Shown here: positions 3,893 through 25,064 of the stretch, in pieces | Layout of the letters: each line of letters starts with the position of its first letter | How positions within the stretch are numbered: position 1 is the stretch's first letter | IMG/VR virus record: IMGVR_UViG_3300010297_000077 | Location: 1 to 25,064 of that record | Length of the DNA: 25,064 nucleotides | DNA from: a virus | Direction: 5' to 3' (one strand) | Notes under the pieces: model-generated | Seen by the model: only the letters and a program-made list of their open reading frames with translations | What the model was told of the DNA's origin: nothing | Database searches by the model: none | Program-made: the position numbers and the translations under genes

Positions 3893-5185
3893 TTAACTTA
3901 GATCCCGCACCAGATCAAATAATTCATCTATTTGATCTTGTACATTGTCATAAAAATCATTTATCTGCTCTGTTTGTTGTTCCTGTTGCGATCTTGCGGC
4001 ATCTGCCAATACTGTTGCTTGTGCAATCGAACCTTCTGCTGCTGTTTGGAATGCTTCTGCTTGTGCTAACGCAGCTGCTGCGGCTGCTCGTTCTTGTTCC
4101 ACTTCATTATTTAATGCATTGAATGTTTGATCTACTGACGCTTGGAATGAATCCATGGCTCCACACGCTGCACCTACTGTATCAGATAATTGTGAAAATG
4201 ATTCACCGAATGGTGTTATAGCCATTTCTTCAGTAAATTCCGAAGATCTATCAGCGCTAACAGTTCCGCCACCAGCACCACCACCTCCTCCGGCACCGCC
4301 ACCTGATCCTCCAGAACCACCGCCTGAACCACCTCCGCTGCCACCTGAACCACCTCCGCTTCCACCAGTGCCACCTGAACCACCACCGCTACCACCACTA
4401 CCACCACTACCACCGCCGCTTCCACCAGTGCCACCTGAACCACCAGAACCGCCTGAACCACCGCCTGAACCACCGCCTGAACCACCTCCTCCGGCACCGC
4501 CTGGTGGTGGTGTCATTATATTATTCTGAACACTTGGGGGAATTGGAATAGACGGTTCATTTCCTAATTGTATTTCAGCTGCCACTTTTTCTGCATCCGT
4601 CGGTGTGAACCCACCATTAATGAGTATATTAGTGTTTGATTGTCTAATTAAATCTGCATATTGTGATGGCTCAATTACTCTAATTGATTCGTAAATTTGC
4701 CCTTTTTCTGCTAATAATACCTGTACTGTTTTAAAGTTAGGAATTTGTGTGGTAATACCATTTATAATAGTGTGGTATGTGTAATTTTCTGGTTTCTGTA
4801 CACCTTGACCAACAACTCGAAAGATTGTCCCGTCATCAAAAACAAACGGATCACCTAAAACAGATATTGACTCTCGTGGGCTGAAATATTCGAAATTCCT
4901 ATTGACTTTATATATAAAATTTGCATCATTTAAAAACACTTTCAACGGTAATAGATTTATAAAAGACTTTGATTCTTTTATTGGTATTATTGCGGTTTGA
5001 CTAAAATTCCGCTGAGAAATTTTGCTTGCAATTGGATGTTTTGCAATCATTTCAGCCTTAGTTTCTTTTGTAATAGATTCACTATCGCCCGGAAATCCAT
5101 TCAAAATAAACCGCATTTGCCCTGCTTCAGGTGAACCAGGTACTGCATATTTAATTGGTGCAAAAATTGTGTTTATACTTTTCAT
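3893..5185 (-). CDS. Virion protein with N-terminal domain, 79-residue Gly/Ser linker and C-terminal coiled coil
   Basis: A 430-aa protein with three parts. Residues 1-220 form a mixed, probably beta-rich domain (for example VFDDGTIFRVVGQG) that I do not recognise. Residues 229-307 are almost only Gly with Ser, Thr and a few Ala. Residues 315-430 are helical and rich in Ala, Gln and Glu, ending in a heptad-like acidic tail (DNVQDQIDELFDLVRDL). Its ATG overlaps the upstream stop by 4 nt (ATGA), and the giant wedge gene follows after 3 nt, so it is translated with the baseplate set. A long flexible linker between a folded domain and a coiled coil suggests a tethered tail or baseplate appendage. 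Gly-rich tracts also occur in T-even gp38 adhesins, but these are linker-like rather than the motif-type loops of gp38. Structural role likely, precise function unknown. Confidence 0.7.
   Translation of the reverse strand: MKSINTIFAPIKYAVPGSPEAGQMRFILNGFPGDSESITKETKAEMIAKHPIASKISQRNFSQTAIIPIKESKSFINLLPLKVFLNDANFIYKVNRNFEYFSPRESISVLGDPFVFDDGTIFRVVGQGVQKPENYTYHTIINGITTQIPNFKTVQVLLAEKGQIYESIRVIEPSQYADLIRQSNTNILINGGFTPTDAEKVAAEIQLGNEPSIPIPPSVQNNIMTPPPGGAGGGGSGGGSGGGSGGSGGSGGTGGSGGGSGGSGGSGGGSGGTGGSGGGSGGSGGGSGGGSGGSGGGAGGGGGAGGGTVSADRSSEFTEEMAITPFGESFSQLSDTVGAACGAMDSFQASVDQTFNALNNEVEQERAAAAAALAQAEAFQTAAEGSIAQATVLADAARSQQEQQTEQINDFYDNVQDQIDELFDLVRDLS
4265..4501 (-). repeat. Coding repeat: Gly/Ser linker tract
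   Basis: This tract encodes residues 229-307 of the overlapping virion protein. The DNA is made of short GGN/AGC-type units. A 30-nt block at 4357-4386 recurs exactly at 4417-4446, a 60-nt period, which points to recent unit duplication or slippage. It is strikingly GC-rich against the AT-rich surroundings because glycine codons are GGN. Long open frames on the other strand and in another minus frame are side effects of this composition. Confidence 0.9.
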
Positions 5186-6285
5186 CGCTCAACTTTAAAA
5201 TTAATACCGCTGTCAATAATTTCTGTTCCATTATCATCCACTACTTTTATCAGCACTTTATAATAACGAACTGGTAAAAAGTTCGCTAAATCTAACGTTA
5301 TAAAATGCCCATCATCATCCAAATCTATCTTAGTTCCGACCGTATTATATGGAACTATTGAAGTACCTGTTACATAATCCACAACTGAATAGTATGTCGT
5401 TTCTGGAAATCGTAATGGTGTAATATTTCTAACTGACCGACTATAAGATTTAGTTGGATATTTTTCACGAACACCCAACCGCAATTTTATATTTTCTCCA
5501 ACTCGATAAAACGATTTCAAGTTTTTACAATACACCGTATAATTGTTATCTACAAAACTCGCTGTTGAAAAAGAGCCAGTATAACCTGAGTGGTTATCCC
5601 AAAATATTTCCAACCTTGGTATGTAAATTGTGTGTGTATCTTTACCGAAAAATTTCAAACTACCATACACATTTGAATCACCCTCACTACCAGAAGAATG
5701 CTTTAATATAAAACCATTATTAGTAATTGATCCGCTTACCCATTCTTGAACAATTGGTGTTACATTCATCCTAATATCTGGGCTTTGGAACGAGAATGAT
5801 TGCGATGCTACATAATTTGAGTTCCAACTTCCACCACCCGATACAGATGTATATTCAACAACATAAGAAGCGGAATTCCATTGATCTGCAGCATCTTTTG
5901 ATGACTTATATGCCCAAGAAACGCCATTTGTTACTTCAGGCCTATCATTATAATAACCGTTACCATTTACCCAGCTTTCTGCTATTGGATGTGCATATAA
6001 CGTATATTCATTTGCAACAGCAACTGAATCAATTGAATACAAATTTAAATAATATTGAGCAGAACCGGTATCGATTGTTTGTGAAGTAACACCACTTAAA
6101 TCAAAATCAAGTAATATTCTTGAATTATATGTAGAGCCCCATTCGGCATATAAATCAGACTCATCATCCCGGGTTTGACCTTCTGCAAACTTAGTTATTT
6201 CAATAATCTGATCCGCTCCTGTGTTTCTATACTGAGCTTTTTCATATATTGTTGCATCACGCTTTGGATAAAGTATTTTATACAT
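5182..6285 (-). CDS. DNRLRE/CBM96-like beta-sandwich virion protein
   Basis: A 367-aa protein. The N-terminal 235 residues follow the DNRLRE/CBM96 pattern: an opening DATIYE, a LLDFDLSG strand, W-x-N-G after ESW, a GVSW strand, then DIRMNVTPIVQEWVSG and NGFILKHSSG before a closing strand with PRLEIFWD. This fold is known from secreted carbohydrate-binding and adhesion proteins. The last 130 residues look like a second beta-rich domain. The start is well supported by GGAGG 8 nt before ATG, and the gene overlaps the 74-aa gene upstream by 8 nt. Its place between gp6 and the giant wedge protein argues for a peripheral baseplate component, perhaps glycan binding (inference). A gp8 or gp10 analogue is possible but I see no direct similarity. 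Confidence 0.7.
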   Translation of the reverse strand: MYKILYPKRDATIYEKAQYRNTGADQIIEITKFAEGQTRDDESDLYAEWGSTYNSRILLDFDLSGVTSQTIDTGSAQYYLNLYSIDSVAVANEYTLYAHPIAESWVNGNGYYNDRPEVTNGVSWAYKSSKDAADQWNSASYVVEYTSVSGGGSWNSNYVASQSFSFQSPDIRMNVTPIVQEWVSGSITNNGFILKHSSGSEGDSNVYGSLKFFGKDTHTIYIPRLEIFWDNHSGYTGSFSTASFVDNNYTVYCKNLKSFYRVGENIKLRLGVREKYPTKSYSRSVRNITPLRFPETTYYSVVDYVTGTSIVPYNTVGTKIDLDDDGHFITLDLANFLPVRYYKVLIKVVDDNGTEIIDSGINFKVER

Positions 6286-15145: not shown

Positions 15146-15180
15146 TTTTTTTGTTTTTATTTTAATAAAATTAATTTGAA
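15146..15180 (-). repeat. Repeated gene junction, copy 2 (A-rich leader)
   Basis: On the minus strand AAATTAATTTTATTAAAATA runs from the methyltransferase end over its stop into AAAACAAAAAAAATG. It matches the junction at 12681-12716 with a few differences, including the last codons of two unrelated upstream genes. Confidence 0.45.
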
Positions 15181-15861
15181 AAATGATGTAGAATCTGTGC
15201 AATCAATTGCGTAAGGTACTCCTATCGCATTGATAATTTCTACGATTCTCGATCTTTTATAAAATATGTAATCTGATTCATTATTATTACTTGTTTCAGG
15301 TAATAACATAAAAACTGAGCCAACATTACAAATATTTAGAGATTTTCTAATCATCATTTCTAGATATTCGTATTGATCAGTTTGTATATTTCCATAATTC
15401 ATAGTAATATTCGTATTATGGAATACCCAATCATATTTTGTAGTTTCATCATAGTTTTCATCAAACACTTCAGATTTTAACGCAAATTCAAAAAACTCTG
15501 AGTTACTTTCTTCTATAAGAAAATCGTATTTGTATTTCCCTACTTCTATCATTAATGGATTACTATCAATACCTGTATATTTAATCTTCTGGCAATTCAT
15601 ATCCATCAATAAATAACGGCCAAAATCCCCTCGCCCACATCCAACATCTAAAACAGTTGATGTAACATCAGGGTGCACAGTACCAACAATTGCAGAACTA
15701 TATATCAAATTTTGCAAGTCTTCTGTTTCGTAACCAACTGTCAAACTATCAGTAATCATATAATCAGGAAATGCCTCTTCAGTACGAGTCTCTGAAACTG
15801 GAGTATCTTCTATACTATCAATAGTATTCGTTTCATTAAAAACTTCTTGAATTCTTTTCAT
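15157..15861 (-). CDS. Class I SAM-dependent methyltransferase
   Basis: A 234-aa protein with a clear motif I, LDVGCGRGDFG at residues 71-81, preceded by a hydrophobic strand. GIDSNPLMIEVGK follows as motif II with the acidic residue that binds the SAM ribose. YDWVFHNTNITMNYG is a plausible motif IV region, without the NPPY or DPPY of DNA N6-adenine/N4-cytosine enzymes. The target is therefore not readable and could be a small molecule, protein or RNA. The first 40 residues are acidic and probably disordered. It lies between the amidase and a small gene ending at a terminator. Confidence 0.82.
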   Translation of the reverse strand: MKRIQEVFNETNTIDSIEDTPVSETRTEEAFPDYMITDSLTVGYETEDLQNLIYSSAIVGTVHPDVTSTVLDVGCGRGDFGRYLLMDMNCQKIKYTGIDSNPLMIEVGKYKYDFLIEESNSEFFEFALKSEVFDENYDETTKYDWVFHNTNITMNYGNIQTDQYEYLEMMIRKSLNICNVGSVFMLLPETSNNNESDYIFYKRSRIVEIINAIGVPYAIDCTDSTSFFKLILLK

Positions 15862-16888: not shown

Positions 16889-17746
16889 TCAAGGAAATTC
16901 AATCAACTCAATATCACGAAATGCATCGCCAGGTGATGGCACGGGCGGAAAGTTAGGAGTTACAGGTGACGGTGGTAGTGGTGGTGCCGGAAAGTTAGGC
17001 GGCGGTGGTACGGAACTTATAGGAACGGCAGGCATCCCTGCAGGCAAACTTGGTGGTGTAATAGGTGGTGCAGTAGGATATTGAACTTCCGGTGGAAATG
17101 GTGCGTATTGTGAAGGTAATGGCGGTAATGGTGGAACAGCACCAGATAATAAGTCCCCAGTTGATATAGGTGGAACTGGTGGCAATCCAGTCGGTAACGG
17201 TGGTAGTGGTGGTAGCGGTGCAGGAGGCATTCCAGGTACTATTCCAGCAACAGGGCAAGGTGAAAGAAATACGCCAAGCCACGGAAAAGAAATACCAGGA
17301 AAGAAATTTGTAAATATGCCAGTTAGTGACTGAAAATGTGCAGCTAAAACACTGGATAACATATTTAACCAAAGATTATAGTCTAGATTTTCTGGAATTG
17401 GTGGACCTTGTAATATCCCAGGAAACGTTACAGCAACAATACCAATCGGTCCTACAAATATCTGACCTGTCCAATATTGTATAATTAATGGATTTAATTG
17501 TTGCCAAAAATTCAGTTTATTAAATCCTGTTTGGCGATTTGTATTAAATATCTGCTGTAACCCAGCTAATAATGCAGGAGTCCGAGCAGGAGCTTGAACT
17601 GCTGTACCTCCTCCTGACATTTTCTCAAAATGCCGCAATACACAATTTGTATACGCTTGTGCAATTACTCGAGCTTGTTTAGAAGGATCTGTATGTGGTG
17701 GCACTAATTGTGACAATATCTCTTGCCGCATTAGTGGAAAACTCAT
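16889..17746 (-). CDS. Proline-rich hypothetical protein
   Basis: A 285-aa protein. The N-terminal 170 residues look folded: helix RQEILSQLVPPHTDPSKQARVIAQAY is followed by moderately hydrophobic segments such as GQIFVGPIGIVAVTFPG and NFFPGISFPWLGVFLSP. Residues 171-273 are dominated by Pro with Leu, Val, Ala and Phe (PLPPLPPLP, PPPPNFPAPPLPPSP), a polyproline-helix tail, ending in a short acidic segment. It begins 2 nt after the stop of the beta-helix protein and precedes the amidase. I recognise no family. A rigid Pro-rich stalk on a structural protein, or an envelope-spanning lysis factor, would both fit; neither is shown. Confidence 0.7.
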   Translation of the reverse strand: MSFPLMRQEILSQLVPPHTDPSKQARVIAQAYTNCVLRHFEKMSGGGTAVQAPARTPALLAGLQQIFNTNRQTGFNKLNFWQQLNPLIIQYWTGQIFVGPIGIVAVTFPGILQGPPIPENLDYNLWLNMLSSVLAAHFQSLTGIFTNFFPGISFPWLGVFLSPCPVAGIVPGMPPAPLPPLPPLPTGLPPVPPISTGDLLSGAVPPLPPLPSQYAPFPPEVQYPTAPPITPPSLPAGMPAVPISSVPPPPNFPAPPLPPSPVTPNFPPVPSPGDAFRDIELIEFP

Positions 17747-18815: not shown

Positions 18816-19370
18816 TTATCCTATTCCAAACGTATTTTTAACTGTTCTGAATATAGATGCAGATTCTACACCTTTAACAGATGTTTTTAAACCCTTCAAC
18901 ATACCTTTACCCCAGTCCGAACCCTTAACTGCAGATATAGTTTCTGATCCTCCTTGCATTGCCATTGCTAATATAATAAACCCGTATATTGCTTCAGTTA
19001 TTGCATCAATGTATTTTGCCGATTCTCCCTTTAAAAATAGTGCTAATACCTTTTTAATCGGGGCTTGAAACGCTTTTTCATTTTTATGAGACCAGTCATA
19101 TATCTGCTTAGCAACATTACCTGTTTTATCCCATTCGTATTTATCCGCCACCTTTTTTGCAATTTTGGAAACCATATTAGCAACCGCATTTGATAAAAGC
19201 ACATATCCTAAAACCCCAACAACACTTAATGCTTCATCTAAATTACTCTCCTGGTCTTCTAATTCATCGGCAATCTCATCAGCAATATCATTAGCCAAGC
19301 CAGATTCCACATCAAAATCAGGCAACTCTTCTTCATTCATATATTCAACAAAAATTTTTTTAATTTTCAT
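18816..19370 (-). CDS. Possible internal virion protein with N-terminal tag and hydrophobic helices
   Basis: A 184-aa protein beginning MKIKKIFVEYMNEEELPDF. Acidic residues 10-45 are followed by hydrophobic helices at about 47-68 (LSVVGVLGYVLLSNAVANMV) and 130-142 (AIYGFIILAMAM) with a basic amphipathic stretch between, and a basic C-terminus. The tag MKIKKIF-x-E is shared with the 140-aa protein at 23381-23803 and lies in a duplicated 60-nt cassette. Many marine T4-like phages carry proteins with a short basic-then-acidic N-terminal tag and a similar hydrophobic body, and in T4 such tags (capsid-targeting sequences, cut after x-E by the prohead protease) send proteins into the head. The assignment is an inference. 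AGAGG lies 7 nt before the ATG. Confidence 0.65.
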   Translation of the reverse strand: MKIKKIFVEYMNEEELPDFDVESGLANDIADEIADELEDQESNLDEALSVVGVLGYVLLSNAVANMVSKIAKKVADKYEWDKTGNVAKQIYDWSHKNEKAFQAPIKKVLALFLKGESAKYIDAITEAIYGFIILAMAMQGGSETISAVKGSDWGKGMLKGLKTSVKGVESASIFRTVKNTFGIG

Positions 19371-19414
19371 AATATACCTCTTTCATGGTAACAGTATTGC
19401 ATATTAATATATAT
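19355..19414 (-). repeat. Duplicated start cassette, copy 1
   Basis: This 60-nt block aligns without gaps to 23788-23847 with about 53 identical positions. It contains 44 nt upstream of the ATG (including AGAGGTATATT) and the first codons of the 184-aa gene. Its upstream half corresponds to the coding end of the 79-aa gene in copy 2, but here it is non-coding and reads IY, stop, YAILLP, stop in the matching frame, like a decayed gene end. Confidence 0.8.
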
Positions 19415-19419
19415 TATTC

Positions 19420-20085
19420 TTAAATACCATTCAATAATTTCAAGACCTCTTGCACTGCTTCATGTCTATGATTTTGTGTTAATTCTGTAACAAACACATA
19501 TTTTGAATTTTTGATGCGTGCGATGTCTTCTGTTGCTGAATATATCCGGTCTTTAAGGTCGATCTGTTCAGTATCCCCGCAAAATATCATGATACTATTT
19601 TTTCCTATTCTACCAACTGCCATTTGTAACTGTGATCTGGTGAGATTTTGGTATTCATCAACAATTACAACTGCGTCATCAAATGTTCGTCCGCGAAAAT
19701 GTGAAAGTGAAATCATTTCGATTTGTTCATTATCGTACATCGATATTATTTTTTTAGAATCGTATAGCTTCAGCATATTACTCTTCAACGGAACCATCCA
19801 AGGTTCCAATTTTTCTTTTAATGAACCTGGCAAGAAACCGTTATCTTCAGTACCAACTGTAGGTCTGGTTATGATTATTTGATTTTTTTCCCGCTTAAAT
19901 ACTAAATCTAATGCTATTTGTACAGATAATAATGTTTTACCTGTTCCAGCAGCACCATGAATGAAACTAAACGCATGATTTAAAATTTCTGCCTTTGCTA
20001 TTTTTTGCTCTTCATTAAGTGACAGTTTATAATTAATCTGCCCCTTTCGCTGTTTTTTCACACCGGTGTGATTGTTCTCACTCAT
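19420..20085 (-). CDS. phoH: PhoH-like ATPase
   Basis: A 221-aa PhoH-family P-loop protein. Walker A is GAAGTGKT at residues 44-51, Walker B is AVVIVDEYQNLT around 137-148, followed by the family's QLQMAVGRIGKNS and the sensor-like FCGDTEQID and TELTQNHRH. Length is typical of phage PhoH. In bacteria PhoH relatives act with RNA helicase or nuclease partners. In marine phages the gene is widespread, and its link to phosphate stress is debated. AAGGGAAATTA precedes the ATG, a good ribosome site. It follows the small membrane gene and precedes the tagged 184-aa gene. Confidence 0.93.
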   Translation of the reverse strand: MSENNHTGVKKQRKGQINYKLSLNEEQKIAKAEILNHAFSFIHGAAGTGKTLLSVQIALDLVFKREKNQIIITRPTVGTEDNGFLPGSLKEKLEPWMVPLKSNMLKLYDSKKIISMYDNEQIEMISLSHFRGRTFDDAVVIVDEYQNLTRSQLQMAVGRIGKNSIMIFCGDTEQIDLKDRIYSATEDIARIKNSKYVFVTELTQNHRHEAVQEVLKLLNGI

Positions 20086-20148
20086 TAATTTCCCTTGTTA
20101 TTCTATGGAACGTCTTCCCTTGTTAATAAATATCTAGGAGATCTGAAA

Positions 20149-20334
20149 TTACGGGTTGAAAATTATATAGATTAGCCACACAAAGGCAATAAAATTAATA
20201 CATAGAATAAGATAGTATATTGTAAATGCAGTGATTAATATAGATTTGAGAACCTTAAAATACAGTTTAGGATTGAAACCACCACTTTTTTTGCTAGAAT
20301 GGATTAATGTAAATTTGTATAGATTGCGGAACAT
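20149..20334 (-). CDS. Small single-pass membrane protein
   Basis: A 61-aa frame whose residues 27-59 are strongly hydrophobic (SILITAFTIYYLILCINFIAFVWLIYII), a likely transmembrane helix after a basic N-terminus (KKSGGFNPKLYFK). Its ATG overlaps the end of QueD by 31 nt, with GAAGAA 8 nt upstream. The overlap and shortness leave doubt, but the gap between QueD and PhoH is otherwise empty and the positive-inside layout is protein-like. Confidence 0.5.
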   Translation of the reverse strand: MFRNLYKFTLIHSSKKSGGFNPKLYFKVLKSILITAFTIYYLILCINFIAFVWLIYIIFNP

Positions 20335-20738
20335 TTGCGCGTTTCTTCAATTTTACATTCAACAAGAATACAACCAGTCCCAGATAATAGATCAACACTA
20401 ACCTCTTCTACTAAATATTCAGCCATATTTTCAGCTGTTGGGTTAAATGGAACTACAACAATATCGTCAGGTACTAACTTTTTTAAATCAGCACATAATG
20501 GGTCGTTTTCCCAAATAAGCATTTTATGATCCCAATTATCTTCAAGCCACATACATAACTTCGATTTAATGACTGAAAAATCAAGAACTCGGCCAACACC
20601 ATCTAATTTTGGTGCACCAACTTTAAAATGTGTTCGGTAGTTGTGTCCATGCAAATGAGCACATTTGTTTTCATGACCAGCTACTCTATGGCCTGCACTG
20701 AAATCGTGATATCGTTCGGCAAACGTCATACCTTTCAT
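20304..20738 (-). CDS. queD: 6-carboxytetrahydropterin synthase (QueD/PTPS family)
   Basis: A 144-aa QueD/6-pyruvoyl-tetrahydropterin-synthase protein. The zinc site is H17 (FSAGHR), H30 and H32 (HLHGHNY); the catalytic Cys is C26 and the Asp-His pair is D70-H71 (NWDHKML). NPTAENMAEYLVEEV is the family's conserved C-terminal helix and the VECKIEET strand carries the pterin-binding Glu. QueD converts dihydroneopterin triphosphate to 6-carboxytetrahydropterin, the second step to preQ0. Phages use this for tRNA queuosine or 7-deazaguanine DNA modification. It has its own promoter (20759-20787), a leader of about 14 nt and no Shine-Dalgarno. Confidence 0.9.
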   Translation of the reverse strand: MKGMTFAERYHDFSAGHRVAGHENKCAHLHGHNYRTHFKVGAPKLDGVGRVLDFSVIKSKLCMWLEDNWDHKMLIWENDPLCADLKKLVPDDIVVVPFNPTAENMAEYLVEEVSVDLLSGTGCILVECKIEETRKCSAIYTNLH

Positions 20739-20758
20739 AATAAATTTATTTTTTTATA

Positions 20759-20787
20759 AGTATAGGGAAAATTTTTGGGAATTCCAA
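20759..20787 (-). promoter_or_regulatory. Sigma70-type promoter (TTGGAA-17-TATACT) for queD
   Basis: On the minus strand TTGGAA (20787-20782) and TATACT (20764-20759) flank the 17-nt spacer TTCCCAAAAATTTTCCC. The -35 and both spacer ends match the promoter at 13268-13296. The spacer core matches that at 14671-14699. AT-rich inverted sequence AATAATTATT lies just upstream of the -35. Confidence 0.72.
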
Positions 20788-20809
20788 ATTTTTTAATAAT
20801 TATTTTTTA

Positions 20810-21109
20810 TTAATTCATTTCCGGTGGAATGTCATATTCCTCTTTTTTAAATGATGTATATGAATCAACAAGGGCGTATCTTGCATAAGTTCGTTGGCCG
20901 TTTGGAAGTTCTCTTACAATTTCTAAATCCTCAGGAATACCTGGAGTTACATCTTCACCCAAATCAGAAACCCACAACGCTGAAAAAATATCAGCTTCAA
21001 AAATATCAACATCTGGACAATCAGATATAAATAACGGAAAATGTACACATCCTTCAAGAATGTTTGATACCTGCTCGTCACTAAAAACTTTTTTATTTTT
21101 ATTACTCAT
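20810..21109 (-). CDS. Hypothetical acidic protein (99 aa)
   Basis: A 99-aa acidic protein with an N-terminal basic stretch (SNKNKKVFSDEQ) and a beta-rich remainder (DVDIFEADIFSALWVSDLG, then LEIVRELPNGQRTYARYALVDSY). No family recognised. AGAGGGC 7 nt before ATG is a clear ribosome site, and a 9-bp hairpin separates it from the upstream gene. Last gene before the QueD promoter. Confidence 0.6.
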   Translation of the reverse strand: MSNKNKKVFSDEQVSNILEGCVHFPLFISDCPDVDIFEADIFSALWVSDLGEDVTPGIPEDLEIVRELPNGQRTYARYALVDSYTSFKKEEYDIPPEMN

Positions 21110-21119
21110 ATCTGCCCTC

Positions 21120-21143
21120 TTTATTAACTTCGTTGTTAATAAA
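21120..21143 (-). other. Intercistronic hairpin
   Basis: On the minus strand TTTATTAAC (21143-21135), loop AACGAA and GTTAATAAA (21128-21120) form a perfect 9-bp stem. The stem contains the stop codon of the upstream 96-aa gene and ends one base before the AGGG ribosome site of the next. No U-tract follows, so it looks like an mRNA-processing or translation-control element, not a terminator. Confidence 0.6.
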
Positions 21144-21426
21144 TATCCAGAAATGGTATTATTTTCAATCTATCATTTGCGTAATTTTTGTAATGATTCA
21201 CATATACATTTTCCAATATCTCTTTACAATATGCAGATTTCCTAAATTGGCTTGAAAGTAAATTTCGAAGTCGCTTATTGTATCTTTCAGTTTTTTCTTT
21301 CAACTCCTGTTTACCAATCTGAAAGTATTGAGCACTCTCTGGGTATTGTGTTAGAACCAATAATCCATTTTTAACAAAACCCACAGTATCTCCGGCGTAA
21401 TTAACACATTTAAATCCTATCTTCAT
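21136..21426 (-). CDS. Hypothetical basic protein (96 aa)
   Basis: A 96-aa protein from ATG 21424-21426, chosen because it overlaps the upstream stop as ATGA, typical of coupled genes. An earlier in-frame start at 21459 would overlap by 37 nt. The N-terminus forms strands (MKIGFKCVNYAGDTVGFVKNG); the rest is helical and rich in Lys, Arg and Tyr (ELKEKTERYNKRLRNLL). Function unknown; nucleic-acid binding would fit its charge. Confidence 0.62.
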   Translation of the reverse strand: MKIGFKCVNYAGDTVGFVKNGLLVLTQYPESAQYFQIGKQELKEKTERYNKRLRNLLSSQFRKSAYCKEILENVYVNHYKNYANDRLKIIPFLDIY

Positions 21427-21668
21427 TTTGATAATTCTTCGATCTTTTTCTCGTACCATAACGCCTTTTCAATATCATCATGAATTGAATTTCCTGGTTT
21501 CTTACCGGCGCGCATTCTATATTTAAATGCGTTTATTTTACAATATATAATAAATTGTTCAGGCCCCCAAATACGAATCATCTGTTCCCAAACTTCAACA
21601 TCTGATTGATAATGTGCCGGACGAATTATATCGGTTTGGTTTTTGGTATCTGCGTTGTTTTTTTTCAT
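21423..21668 (-). CDS. DUF3310 (SaV-like) protein
   Basis: An 81-aa protein matching the DUF3310 pattern: RPAHYQ near residue 16, EVWEQMIRIWGPEQFIIYCK, NAFKYRMRAGKKPGNS and DDIEKALWYEKKI near the C-terminus. This small family is common in phages that infect many hosts and is linked to nucleotide-metabolism neighbourhoods, but its biochemical role is unknown. Coupled to the next gene by an ATGA overlap. Confidence 0.8.
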   Translation of the reverse strand: MKKNNADTKNQTDIIRPAHYQSDVEVWEQMIRIWGPEQFIIYCKINAFKYRMRAGKKPGNSIHDDIEKALWYEKKIEELSK

Positions 21669-21671
21669 ACA

Positions 21672-21902
21672 TTATTTTCTATCAAGACTTCTCAAATCGT
21701 CTCTGGTCTCTTTTTCTTTATTGTTATTGATAGTTGTTCCGGACAGTATTAAAAACACCGCTAAAATAAAAGATGATATTGCAAAAAACAATTCTGACAA
21801 TGGATCATGGAATTCGATAATTTGACATATATTACCTGTGGCGGTGGTGTAAAATATAACAAGTAGTAAAACTGCGAATATAACATTTAGGATATTTATC
21901 AT
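21672..21902 (-). CDS. Small two-helix membrane protein
   Basis: A 76-aa protein with hydrophobic helices at about residues 3-20 (ILNVIFAVLLLVIFY) and 37-57 (LFFAISSFILAVFLILSG), a short loop between and a charged C-terminal tail (NNKEKETRDDLRSLDRK). This layout is seen in holins and in superinfection-exclusion proteins, but no family is recognised and it is not next to the endolysin. It lies 3 nt upstream of the DUF3310 start region. Confidence 0.6.
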   Translation of the reverse strand: MINILNVIFAVLLLVIFYTTATGNICQIIEFHDPLSELFFAISSFILAVFLILSGTTINNNKEKETRDDLRSLDRK

Positions 21903-21911
21903 AATTCTTTT

Positions 21912-22157
21912 TTAATTTTCTAAAATCATTTTCAAAATCTGCAATTCAGATTCTTGACTCTTCATCTCATTGATAATATTCTCGGAAAGAGCATCAATGA
22001 ATTCAGCTGTCGGCAAATAATGTGGTTGTATATTTTGGAAATCTTCCAATATTTGCTTGAATCTCGCACAGTTTTCAGAATACTGCTTTTCCAAAACCGC
22101 TTTATGGAAAATTGGAAATGTAATAGTATCCGATGTCGTGTTCATGTTATTTATCAT
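21912..22157 (-). CDS. Hypothetical helical protein (81 aa)
   Basis: An 81-aa mostly helical protein (HKAVLEKQYSENCARFKQIL, then AEFIDALSENIINEMKSQESELQIL). A second Met at codon 5 is an alternative start (22145). No family recognised. It sits 9 nt upstream of the two-helix membrane gene, in a run of small accessory genes. Confidence 0.55.
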   Translation of the reverse strand: MINNMNTTSDTITFPIFHKAVLEKQYSENCARFKQILEDFQNIQPHYLPTAEFIDALSENIINEMKSQESELQILKMILEN

Positions 22158-22186
22158 TAGAAAAGTATATTAAAATGTTTGTTTAA

Positions 22187-22510
22187 TTAAGCTGCTTCTT
22201 CGAGTTGGTACAACTTCTGAATCTCTCCCTCCAAACCTTCAACTAAGGTAGGTTCACTAATAACCAACTCATGTTCACAATACTCAAATCGTCCAGCGAT
22301 TGAGTTTTGAGATTCCACCAAATTTTTGATGGCTTGAATGAGTTTATCCTCATCTGCATAAAATACCATATCCGCATCAACCGGCATCTTAAAGGTGTGT
22401 CCACCTTTGGGTTTCCAATGAGGAAGCCCATCCCCACAGGTGTTGAACCCATCAGGTCCAACATTATAATTTTCGTAATACTGACAATGTACTAATAAAT
22501 TAGATTTCAT
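22187..22510 (-). CDS. Conserved-type phage protein with YENYN / WKPKGGH motifs
   Basis: A 107-aa protein if started at ATG 22508-22510 (MKSNLLVHCQYYENYN). An earlier ATG at 22570 falls inside the promoter spacer of 22559-22587, so it cannot be on that transcript. The motif pair YYENYN and PHWKPKGGHTF, then DEDKLIQAIKNLV, recurs in small proteins of marine T4-like phages; their function is unknown. A GGAAGGA lies about 20 nt before the ATG, further than usual. Confidence 0.65.
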   Translation of the reverse strand: MKSNLLVHCQYYENYNVGPDGFNTCGDGLPHWKPKGGHTFKMPVDADMVFYADEDKLIQAIKNLVESQNSIAGRFEYCEHELVISEPTLVEGLEGEIQKLYQLEEAA

Positions 22511-22558
22511 AGTTTTAGGAATTTTAGTTATCCTTCCCTCTCTTTCTCTTACTTTACT

Positions 22559-22587
22559 AATATAGGGCATTTAGGTGGAAGATCCAA
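22559..22587 (-). promoter_or_regulatory. Sigma70-type promoter (TTGGAT-17-TATATT)
   Basis: On the minus strand TTGGAT (22587-22582) and TATATT (22564-22559) are 17 nt apart. It keeps TTTGGA at the -35 and CCCTATATT at the -10, as in the promoter at 13268-13296. It drives the 107-aa gene and decides its start. Confidence 0.65.
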
Positions 22588-22608
22588 ATCTAAAATGTTA
22601 AAATTTTG

Positions 22609-23034
22609 TTAAAATTCGGAAATATCTTTTAGAATTTCTTTGAGCGCCTTCTCTTCTTTAGCTTTTTTCCTCTTATGAGAATTAGATATTCTCTTTTTTA
22701 ATCTCAAAATTCGAGCACATTGCTCATAATGCTCATGTTCTTCAAAGTTCTGTAAATTAACATTCAAAATATGATCGATTTCTGATTTTGATATTTGTAT
22801 TCGAACAATTTGAGTAATATCAGATATTTCAATTCCGATTGTAAGGTCACTTTCTGTACATCTTGATAAACCTTTGCGTTGGGCTGATTCGATGGTAGTT
22901 ATAATAATATCAGAAAAAATACAATCACGTGAACTTAGTAAATTACGAAATTCATCGACTGTGTCCAAGCAGATAATTGTTTTTGGTTCATTTGAACCTG
23001 GTTGCATTTCAATATATTCGTGTTTGTAATTCAT
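22609..23034 (-). CDS. Hypothetical protein (141 aa)
   Basis: A 141-aa protein without recognised family. The N-terminal 100 residues look alpha/beta (KTIICLDTVDEFRNLL, SDIIITTIESA, IGIEISDITQIVRIQI). The C-terminal 35 are very basic and helical (RLKKRISNSHKRKKAKEEKALKEIL), suggesting nucleic-acid or membrane contact. It is expressed from the promoter at 23046-23074 with a predicted leader of only about five bases, so it would be translated nearly leaderless. Confidence 0.62.
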   Translation of the reverse strand: MNYKHEYIEMQPGSNEPKTIICLDTVDEFRNLLSSRDCIFSDIIITTIESAQRKGLSRCTESDLTIGIEISDITQIVRIQISKSEIDHILNVNLQNFEEHEHYEQCARILRLKKRISNSHKRKKAKEEKALKEILKDISEF

Positions 23035-23045
23035 TATCTAGTTGT

Positions 23046-23074
23046 AATATACGAAAAAAAATCTAGATAACCAA
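23046..23074 (-). promoter_or_regulatory. Sigma70-type promoter (TTGGTT-17-TATATT)
   Basis: On the minus strand TTGGTT (23074-23069) and TATATT (23051-23046) are 17 nt apart. The palindrome TGTAAAATTATTTTACA (23081-23097) lies just upstream of the -35, resembling the palindrome upstream of the 13268-13296 promoter. Confidence 0.6.
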
Positions 23075-23165
23075 ATATGATGTAAAATTATTTTACAATA
23101 GAGATTGCATTGTGATCTTGGTCATCTGTACAATCTTTATGATTTTTCAAAGAAGTGCACAATTT

Positions 23166-23366
23166 TTACATCGTATCCTCTATGTCGAAATTTCTTTTAA
23201 GTTCACGAAGTATCAAATTTAAATCACTATCGCTAAGTTGCCTGAGGGCTTCATCCAACGTTTTTTCAAATCCAACCATTTCACCAATTTCCATTATTTG
23301 ATCAAATGCATCATTTGATGAGATTCTTTCTGTTAAATGACTTTTGTAAATATTTCGTAGATTCAT
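23166..23366 (-). CDS. Small hypothetical acidic protein (66 aa)
   Basis: A 66-aa helical protein beginning MNLRNIYKSHLTERISSNDAF. CAGGA lies 9 nt before the ATG. The basic start followed by an L-T-E triplet is loosely like the MKIKKIF-x-E tag of its upstream neighbour, but similarity is weak. It follows the tagged 140-aa gene after 14 nt. Function unknown. Confidence 0.58.
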   Translation of the reverse strand: MNLRNIYKSHLTERISSNDAFDQIMEIGEMVGFEKTLDEALRQLSDSDLNLILRELKRNFDIEDTM

Positions 23367-23380
23367 AATTTTTTCCTGTA

Positions 23381-23803
23381 TTAAATATCATCCAATCCAT
23401 ATACCTGCTTCATAGTTGCAGTAAAATCTTTCCATTTCTTAATTGGCACCTTTTTATAAGTATCCCTTATATAATCATACAATATATCATTAAAATCGAC
23501 AGTATATTCAAAATCTATTAATTGGTTAGAATCTATTTTGTCATCTAAATAATCATCCAACCAATCTAATATAGAATCCCCACTTATCGAAACAACATCA
23601 GAATCACCCAATTCTTCTTTATAGAAGTTTTTATCGTGTATAATTAACACATCGATATCAGAATCATATAAATCATCGCTATTTTTTGGGGGATTATAAA
23701 CATCCTCGATATAAAAATGCGTCCAATCACCGTTAATTGTATCTTCGTTTAAGTCAAATAATGACCGATTTTCAACTTCACTAAATATTTTTTTAATTTT
23801 CAT
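23381..23803 (-). CDS. Tagged acidic hypothetical protein (140 aa)
   Basis: A 140-aa very acidic protein, many Asp (YDSDIDVLIIHDKNF, DSILDWLDDYLDDKID), beginning MKIKKIFSEVENRSLFDLNED. The first nine residues repeat those of the 184-aa protein at 18816-19370 save one (S for V); the bodies share nothing obvious. The shared part is inside a duplicated 60-nt cassette that includes AGAGG 7 nt before ATG. A head-targeting tag is the working idea. Strong acidity would also fit a DNA-mimic or internal-head protein. Confidence 0.62.
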   Translation of the reverse strand: MKIKKIFSEVENRSLFDLNEDTINGDWTHFYIEDVYNPPKNSDDLYDSDIDVLIIHDKNFYKEELGDSDVVSISGDSILDWLDDYLDDKIDSNQLIDFEYTVDFNDILYDYIRDTYKKVPIKKWKDFTATMKQVYGLDDI

Positions 23804-23847
23804 AATATACCTCTATCATGTTAAACGTAGTGTATATTGATATATAT
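23788..23847 (-). repeat. Duplicated start cassette, copy 2
   Basis: This block aligns without gaps to 19355-19414 with about 53 of 60 positions identical. It covers the last codons of the 79-aa gene (ending QYTLRLT), the 12-nt gap with AGAGG and the first codons of the 140-aa gene. Because one half is coding here, this is likely the ancestral arrangement. Confidence 0.8.
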
Positions 23848-24025
23848 CTTCAGGTGGTGTATATTTTTTAGATAATTGTTCTACAATCGATTTCCAAGCA
23901 ATAATTTTTTGATCTTTTTTCGTAGGAGCACGTTTCTTTTGAATAAAATATATAAAATCAATTAAATCCTCGGGATTGTTTTTCCACCACTCAGATTCCC
24001 CATATTTTATTTTTATTCTATGCAC
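23816..24025 (-). CDS. Small hypothetical protein with SEWWKNNPEDLIDF motif
   Basis: A protein of 69 aa if started at GTG 24023-24025, which shares its G with the TAG stop of the oxygenase gene (TAGTG), a typical coupled arrangement. A TTG at 24053-24055 would add 10 residues and overlap by 31 nt. There is no ATG in the frame. The sequence is basic and rich in aromatics (KIKYGESEWWKNNPEDLIDFIYF, then KKRAPTKKDQKIIAWKSIVEQL). Function unknown. Its 3' end forms part of the duplicated cassette. Confidence 0.58.
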   Translation of the reverse strand: MHRIKIKYGESEWWKNNPEDLIDFIYFIQKKRAPTKKDQKIIAWKSIVEQLSKKYTPPEDIYQYTLRLT

Positions 24026-24636
24026 TATTGGTGTATTTGCTTCTCTCTTACCCAAATAACAAGTATATATTTTTCACCTGATATTACTGGTTGTCCAGCA
24101 TGTAGACTGTTTTCTAGTGGCTTTCCAGTTGCATCTAAATTTCTCCAAAACACTGATTTACCTGTCTGCGGAGTTACTGTTTTGCCAATATTTGGAAATG
24201 CTGTTTCTCCGCCTACACAATCTTCGTTTAAATAAATTAAAAACGTAGAAGTTCTATTACCCCATTCATTGAAATTGGCTTCCGAATACGAGTTACCCTG
24301 TTCCTCTGTGAACCAATCCCAATGCGGTTCATACTTACCACCCGGTCCATATTTTACAATGTGTATATATTCAAAATGTCGATAATCTAAACCTGACAAT
24401 GATTTTAGGGCCTGGTTTATTTTCAACCGAATAGGATGTGTAAGTGGTAACTGATAATCCGATAACCAGGTGCCAGTAGCATCTCTTACATCTTCTTGTA
24501 CCTTTTGATCAGCGACGACACCAGACGTTTTTAAAGTAGGCGATGCCAGTTCAATTAAATACTTGCATTCCTTAGCAGTGAGTGTCTGAGGAATAGTTAT
24601 GAGATCGATATCATTGATTCTATTGATATTATTCAT
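24025..24636 (-). CDS. 2-oxoglutarate/Fe(II)-dependent oxygenase, prolyl-4-hydroxylase-like
   Basis: A 203-aa P4H-alpha-type double-stranded beta-helix enzyme. The iron triad is H105 and D107 (YEPHWDWF) with H179 (SLHAGQPV), and K189 (SGEKYILV) is the 2-oxoglutarate-binding Lys. TFLIYLNEDCVGGETAFP (131-148) is the characteristic strand, and the GKSVFWRNLD segment is typical. It hydroxylates a prolyl or similar side chain of an unknown substrate, using oxygen and 2-oxoglutarate. Such genes are common in marine T4-like phages. AAAAGGAATTAAA precedes the ATG, a good ribosome site. The window also encodes a Pro-rich protein (16889-17746), a possible but unproven substrate. Confidence 0.9.
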   Translation of the reverse strand: MNNINRINDIDLITIPQTLTAKECKYLIELASPTLKTSGVVADQKVQEDVRDATGTWLSDYQLPLTHPIRLKINQALKSLSGLDYRHFEYIHIVKYGPGGKYEPHWDWFTEEQGNSYSEANFNEWGNRTSTFLIYLNEDCVGGETAFPNIGKTVTPQTGKSVFWRNLDATGKPLENSLHAGQPVISGEKYILVIWVREKQIHQ

Positions 24637-24842: not shown

Positions 24843-25064
24843 TTATTTCCCTACCTTTTTAAATAGTGATTCTGTCAATACCTCCCTGCATATATCAGCA
24901 CACTCTTTAAGGGTTTCTTTTCGAGCAGCATCAGCAGCATTAGCAGCATTAGCAGCAAAAGCAGCAGCAAAAGCAGCAGCATCATAAGCATTAGCAGCAT
25001 CATAAGCAGCATCATAAGCAGCATAAGCAGCAGCAGCATTAGCAGCATCATAAGCAGCATCATA
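24843..25064 (-). CDS. Ala-rich YDAA-repeat phage protein (C-terminal 73 aa; N-terminus off window)
   Basis: The frame enters from the right edge and ends at TAA 24843-24845. The visible part has repeats of YDAA, NAA, FAAA and AYAA type over 47 residues, then a non-repeat end (ARKETLKECADICREVLTESL). Phage proteins with such Ala/Asp/Tyr coils followed by an ADICREVL-like tail are common and have no known function. The repeat should form helices. Long frames in other phases here (runs of Met and Leu on the minus strand, Ser and Ala on plus) are shadows of the repeat. Confidence 0.75.
   Translation of the reverse strand, partial: YDAAYDAANAAAAYAAYDAAYDAANAYDAAAFAAAFAANAANAADAARKETLKECADICREVLTESLFKKVGK
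24924..25064 (-). repeat. Short tandem coding repeats (GCTGCT/TATGAT units)
   Basis: Minus-strand units of GCTGCT with TATGAT, AAT or TTT between fill this stretch, encoding the Ala-rich tract. Unit order is irregular, as expected for repeated slippage. The repeat continues past the window edge. Confidence 0.85.

Follow-up and report, generated by a model that had tools for sequence, protein, structure and literature searches.

The window analyzed here is the whole of a 25,064-base virus record (IMG/VR record IMGVR_UViG_3300010297_000077), itself a fragment of a genome, in which a start block of 60 nucleotides occurs twice on the minus strand. Each copy supplies the start of a gene, and the two genes, for proteins of 184 and 140 residues, thereby begin with the same N-terminal segment, MKIKKIF-x-E, termed here the tag; the remainder of each tagged protein is referred to as its cargo. 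The locus comprises the following features.

18816–19370, minus strand: gene for the 184-residue tagged protein, predicted all-helical, with homologues in IMG/VR loci and in Flavobacterium phage immuto
19344–19414, minus strand: start cassette copy 1, with leader, AGAGGTATATT, ATG and MKIKKIFVE of the 184-residue protein; 53/60 identity to copy 2; upstream half resembling the end of the 79-residue gene, with one in-frame stop
19344–19370, minus strand: copy 1 tag codons MKIKKIFV-E; predicted prohead-protease site after E9, from the sequence and motif comparison with the N-termini of relatives' major capsid proteins and proteases
19371–19381, minus strand: copy 1 leader AGAGGTATATT, with the Shine-Dalgarno-like AGAGG
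23381–23803, minus strand: gene for the 140-residue acidic tagged protein, with a weak, sub-threshold nucleotidyltransferase match
23777–23847, minus strand: start cassette copy 2, with the last 32 nucleotides of the 79-residue gene, AGAGGTATATT, ATG and MKIKKIFSE of the 140-residue protein; 53/60 identity to copy 1
23777–23803, minus strand: copy 2 tag codons MKIKKIFS-E; predicted site after E9, from the sequence and the same motif comparison
23804–23814, minus strand: copy 2 leader AGAGGTATATT
23816–24055, minus strand: 79-residue gene, probable donor, with its last approximately 11 codons making up the upstream half of copy 2

The two blocks (19355–19414 and 23788–23847) are identical at exactly 53 of 60 bases without gaps and constitute the top-scoring 60-nucleotide repeat of the window; nearly all other 60-nucleotide pairs scoring at least 47 in a window-wide repeat scan fall in low-complexity stretches. 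Local alignment widens the block to 19344–19414 and 23777–23847, reaching the Glu codon (codon 9). Both copies read AGAGGTATATT-ATG-AAAATTAAAAAAAT. The half containing the leader, the ATG and the first tag codons is identical at 27 of 28 bases, compared with 26 of 32 in the upstream half, for which the runner-up place in the window scores 21 of 32; seven of eight codons are identical in the pair (4.8 expected). Of the 32 genes on this strand, three have an AGAGG at most 22 nucleotides from the start. The two proteins show no resemblance beyond the block. On these points a preliminary description of the locus, which had reported a duplicated start block placing one tag on two unrelated proteins, was accurate; the further copies of the block or MKIKKIF-x-E starts that it proposed seeking are absent from the record, which holds these two copies and no third such gene. 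The arrangement recurs in near-identical contigs of other samples (L005, L008, L010), with both copies present in L010, so an assembly error is unlikely.

The 184-residue protein belongs to a family in which the body is conserved and the tag changes. An alignment-based search of IMG/VR with this protein returned 49 matches, of which three represent the window's own species and one is immuto itself. Immuto gp095 is 37% identical to the 184-residue protein across residues 61–170 and begins MKKSELVKLIKEEL instead of MKIKKIF. While the bodies of the family align well, the first 10–20 residues split into at least four unrelated classes, represented by MKIKKIFVE/MKLSSIILE, MKRSQLVKLIKEE, M(D/E)NFDLKKFLVENKLT and xxRxQxLAGIITE. 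A tree built from the body only requires eight changes of tag class, or six with unclassified tags left out, and in it L062 (FDLRKFLTE) clusters with L044/L051 (AGIITE) with support of 97/93. In three homologues (L020:3929–4717, L037:9746–10504 and L043:9155–10525) the tag is separated from the body by an extra domain, as though a second cargo had entered after the tag. A smaller variation is seen in L178:5093 and immuto gp093, which are homologous cargos with slightly differing short tags, MKLVTILKE and MISIYNILKE.

Each tag class is in turn reused on many cargos. Three classes coexist in the immuto genome: the start MKKSxLxxxIxxEL, the class of gp095, also opens gp094, gp080 and gp072; MENFDLKKFLVENKLT starts gp003, gp076 and gp092, with a variant on gp077; and MKKQILSEQFxRMQxLAGIITES starts gp230 and gp083. 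Among cultured phages, the two long tags turned up in immuto alone. Across the contigs, the KIKKIF, FDLKKFL, KKSxL and AGIITE classes are found on 11, 16, 8 and 5 cargo families, respectively, as grouped by single linkage at E 1e-3, which may merge or split cargo; the 184-residue family has all four. Matches at the N-terminus number 14, 46, 53 and 12 for KIKKIF, KKSxL, FDLKKFL and AGIITE, against approximately 0.1, 0.01, 0 and 0 expected from internal positions, with gene starts called as ATG, such that some N-termini may be wrong. The class patterns behind both sets of counts were written after the data had been seen; loci untouched by pattern building provide an out-of-sample check and gave 3 matches for KIKKIF and 10 for KKSxL (0.02 and 0.01 expected). 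A strict DNA pattern for FDLKKFLVENK retrieved 94 IMG/VR sites; at 90 of these an ATG is three or four residues away, and the cargos form 32 families. As the loci were fetched by that pattern, its frequency among them is meaningless, and the position and cargo variety are what inform. A codon pattern for MKIKKIFxE identified in IMG/VR, as clear genes, only the two proteins of this species, plus one 40-residue frame, and the exact leader pattern returned this species only, plus unrelated matches. Pfam and PHROG scans of ten tagged cargo families yielded no known function. With unrelated classes, one cargo family under different classes and each class on many cargos, the tags behave as interchangeable modules.

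Copying at the DNA level can be recognized in several places. Two neighboring genes of L047 have 47 of 48 tag bases in common, and three consecutive genes of L033 share 42–44 of 48, in both cases with unrelated DNA on either side. Codons are identical more often than expected in L047, L033 and the pair of the window, but hardly so in immuto; recent DNA copying therefore explains only a part, and the tags spread partly in this way and are otherwise retained as peptides. Similarity among the relatives begins at the ATG, with the upstream DNA not conserved. The preliminary description's view of the leader as part of the module is thus not supported as a general rule, and the window pair is unusual among tag copies in that the leader travelled along. 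In the relative contig G001 a PhoH gene lies directly beside the homologue of the window's 316-residue gene, and in the window the 184-residue gene stands between the two; relatives of the 184-residue gene in L020 and L060 bear other tags. A transfer of the cassette from the 140-residue gene to a newcomer 184-residue gene would fit these data. The 79-residue gene contributes its end (DIYQYTLRLT(stop)) as the upstream half of copy 2, and copy 1 in the same frame reads NIY(stop)YAILLP(stop), for which "decayed copy", the wording of the preliminary description, is fair. The direction of copying that it drew from this has indirect hints rather than an independent demonstration: relatives of the 140- and 79-residue proteins were sought and none was found beyond this species, and because of this the direction is one that we infer.

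A link to head assembly comes from the relatives. The T4-like genome of immuto encodes a gp20-type portal, a gp23 capsid protein and a prohead serine protease. Of 19 relative contigs, 12 encode Peptidase_S77; one of these is G001, in which gp6 shares 70% identity with that of the window. The homologue of the 184-residue gene lies directly behind the prohead protease gene in five contigs (L020, L040, L050, L052 and L060); in L020, L040 and L060, scaffold and major capsid genes come next, and Pfam confirmed the L020 protease and capsid. MKIKKIF-type tags occur on two of the five homologues (MKLSSIILE in L020 and, from a GTG start, MKLHDILLE in L060). In immuto, the tagged genes gp072 and gp069 neighbor those for the prohead core and protease. 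A large number of cargo genes are not part of the head operon, and where the 184-residue homologue does not follow the protease, it sits in islands containing further tagged genes. At the position of F-L-T-E in T4 gp23, the major capsid proteins of eight relatives display a candidate (I/L)-(V/I)-x-E site, and the relatives' tags mostly end in LVE, LTE, LAE, ITE or LLE; those of the window end in F-V-E and F-S-E.

In T4, the prohead protease gp21 self-cleaves nine N-terminal residues (PMC9958956) and also trims the internal proteins IPI–III and Alt, and a capsid targeting sequence (CTS) of approximately 10 residues is enough to package foreign proteins (PMC9958956, PMC3012670). The internal proteins have the leader alone in common, and they block host restriction enzymes (PMC12373910). 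The window tags resemble the CTS of IPI–IPIII in that about ten N-terminal residues are common to otherwise unrelated small proteins, in the M-K start followed by hydrophobic residues and x-E, in the gp21-family protease of the relatives and in modular gene exchange. They differ in sequence (MKIKKIFxE, not MKTYQEFIAE), and no homology was detected between the two, with only M-K, a hydrophobic residue and the late x-E in common. Further differences are the several unrelated tag classes per genome (three in immuto), the dozens of cargo families and the change of tag class within one cargo family. Applied to T4 N-termini (NC_000866) as a positive control, the same scan recovers the IPII/IPIII tag and additionally picks up gp61.1; none of our four tag patterns matches any T4 gene. 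Closer in length and shape to MKIKKIF-x-E, including the hydrophobic-hydrophobic-x-E end, are the starts of T4 gp24, Alt and gp21 (MAKINELLRE, MELITELFDE and MNEPQLLIE, the last having nine residues and ending in LLIE), although these, apart from the alt duplication, are not common to several proteins, whereas the tags here are shared. T-even phages reportedly carry polymorphic internal-protein loci (Repoila et al. 1994, as cited in PMC12373910), which are likewise variable, encode injected anti-defense proteins and have an N-terminal leader as their sole common part; here the phage lineage is another, with Bacteroidetes hosts judged from the cultured relative. Among the papers searched, none paired the terms capsid targeting sequence and Bacteroidetes.

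We propose, with a probability of roughly 0.7, that, in a T4-like phage whose hosts are probably Bacteroidetes bacteria, a copied start cassette equips two unrelated proteins with one CTS-like N-terminal address tag. Most likely, the MKIKKIF-x-E tag would recruit its protein into the prohead core at assembly, as the T4 CTS does. A Peptidase_S77 (gp21-type) prohead protease would then cut after the Glu of the tag, and the freed cargo would remain in the head with the DNA and subsequently be injected into the host. Recruitment, cleavage after E9 and injection, like the copying from the 140- to the 184-residue gene, are steps that we infer. The preliminary description had already suggested a T4-like capsid-targeting N-terminus moving between unrelated proteins; the recurrence of the relatives' tags on unrelated proteins, the protease in relatives and the prohead-operon position in five contigs bear this out, with packaging and cleavage being the conditional part. 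It had also staked the idea on a prohead protease gene and other tagged proteins in the genome, both of which are found in relatives; the window itself is a 25-kb fragment lacking head genes. Judged from sequence, tag swapping on unrelated proteins supports T4-type capsid targeting by interchangeable modules.

Several observations weigh against this proposal. Neither head genes nor a prohead protease were found in the 25-kb window fragment, and the 140-residue protein, having no relatives, is tied to the head by its tag alone. A third gene with the exact MKIKKIF-x-E tag was sought and not found. Position P3 of the window tags is Phe (F-V-E, F-S-E), where the usual residue is aliphatic. The MKIKKIF class is short and less distinctive than the longer classes, and its pattern is not fully specific, as it also matches once in Flavobacterium phage 11b, a phage with a different head system. 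Lastly, a loose N-terminal [ILF]xE motif is enriched in some contigs (z scores of 3.8–5.5 in G001, G009 and G018), with a z score of 1.5 in the window and no enrichment in several other contigs; as stand-alone evidence this enrichment was judged too weak.

The duplication may instead have moved an expression module: a strong ribosome site in its leader, possibly together with a promoter, would have been copied, with the shared first codons as passive passengers. Approximately 45 nucleotides upstream of the ATG are conserved, including the AGAGG that is uncommon in the window, and mobile regulatory or promoter cassettes are known in T4-type phages, where they likewise are short repeats with expression signals moving between genes. 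Those cassettes sit between genes, whereas in the present case conservation falls on the coding tag: the half with leader and tag is preserved better than the upstream half, and the relatives' shared stretch starts at the ATG, with tag residues kept and upstream DNA not. In immuto the tags recur as protein with ordinary codon variation; the peptide is therefore what is kept, and we consider an expression module unlikely.

More improbable is a neutral, recent partial duplication by which the 184-residue gene gained a foreign start, and a functionless tag, on insertion behind PhoH. This gene is indeed an insertion relative to G001, and T4 offers a comparable case in the duplicated first part of alt (alt.-1/alt.-2, according to a note in the T4 record), but T4 Alt is itself packaged and processed, and a tag-like segment opens nearly all complete homologues of the 184-residue protein, with such segments reused on other genes of the group. 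Marginally less probable again is a shared N-terminus that directs proteins elsewhere than the prohead core, for instance to the membrane, portal or tail. The basic-hydrophobic MKIKKIF start, the helical, hydrophobic body of the 184-residue protein and the many cargo genes beyond the head operon would suit such a role; against it stand the absence of a hydrophobic stretch after the tag, the five contigs in which the cargo immediately follows the prohead protease and the position of immuto gp072 and gp069 next to prohead core and protease genes.

A wider form of the capsid-targeting proposal, which we advance tentatively and rate as rather doubtful, is that several address tags operate side by side, each being a mobile coding module by which a captured gene becomes cargo of the head, possibly with differing addresses or copy numbers, such that the injected repertoire could be read from sequence. 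Injected phage proteins are hard to recognize, a short leader being their sole common part. From sequence alone, several leader classes were found to be reused on dozens of families without functional annotation in T4-like phages, with a cultured relative on Flavobacterium. Should the tags prove to be packaging signals, candidate injected anti-defense proteins of uncultured phages could be listed directly. Phage immuto, which infects Flavobacterium sp. LMO8, is a cultured system suited to examining a possible packaging role of the tags.

Two further genes of the window may carry related starts.

23166–23366, minus strand: 66-residue protein adjoining the 140-residue gene, with a possible related start, MNLRNIYKSHLTE (tentative)
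15157–15861, minus strand: methyltransferase-like protein of 234 residues, with a possible tag of the same shape, MKRIQEVFNE (tentative)

Domain searches returned no known function for the 184- or 140-residue protein. An AlphaFold model of the former is helical, with a predicted local distance difference test (pLDDT) score of 70, and a fold search with it gave no match at E ≤ 0.001; the model of the latter (pLDDT 38) was useless.

A different recurrent start, M(A/P)xWKK(L/V/I)(V/I)(V/L)SGS, opens several putative tail-fiber or structural proteins with differing bodies (immuto NC_055915 136229 and 137955; G018 35914 and 36941; G001 4966–6228) and is probably a virion-attachment start, not a packaging tag. 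Elsewhere in the window, a 6-pyruvoyl-tetrahydropterin synthase/QueD-like gene (PF01242) is located at 20304–20738; immuto possesses a 7-deazaguanine gene set that includes a DpdA-like gene, and given both, the window phage may also modify its DNA. A 2-oxoglutarate-Fe(II) oxygenase gene (PF13640) is present at 24025–24636. Proteins with low-complexity repeats are encoded at 3893–5185 (a long Gly/Ser-rich stretch) and 16889–17746 (Pro-rich), and the end of the record (24875–25063) is likewise of low complexity, its minus strand reading repeated Met/Leu (MMLLMMLL).

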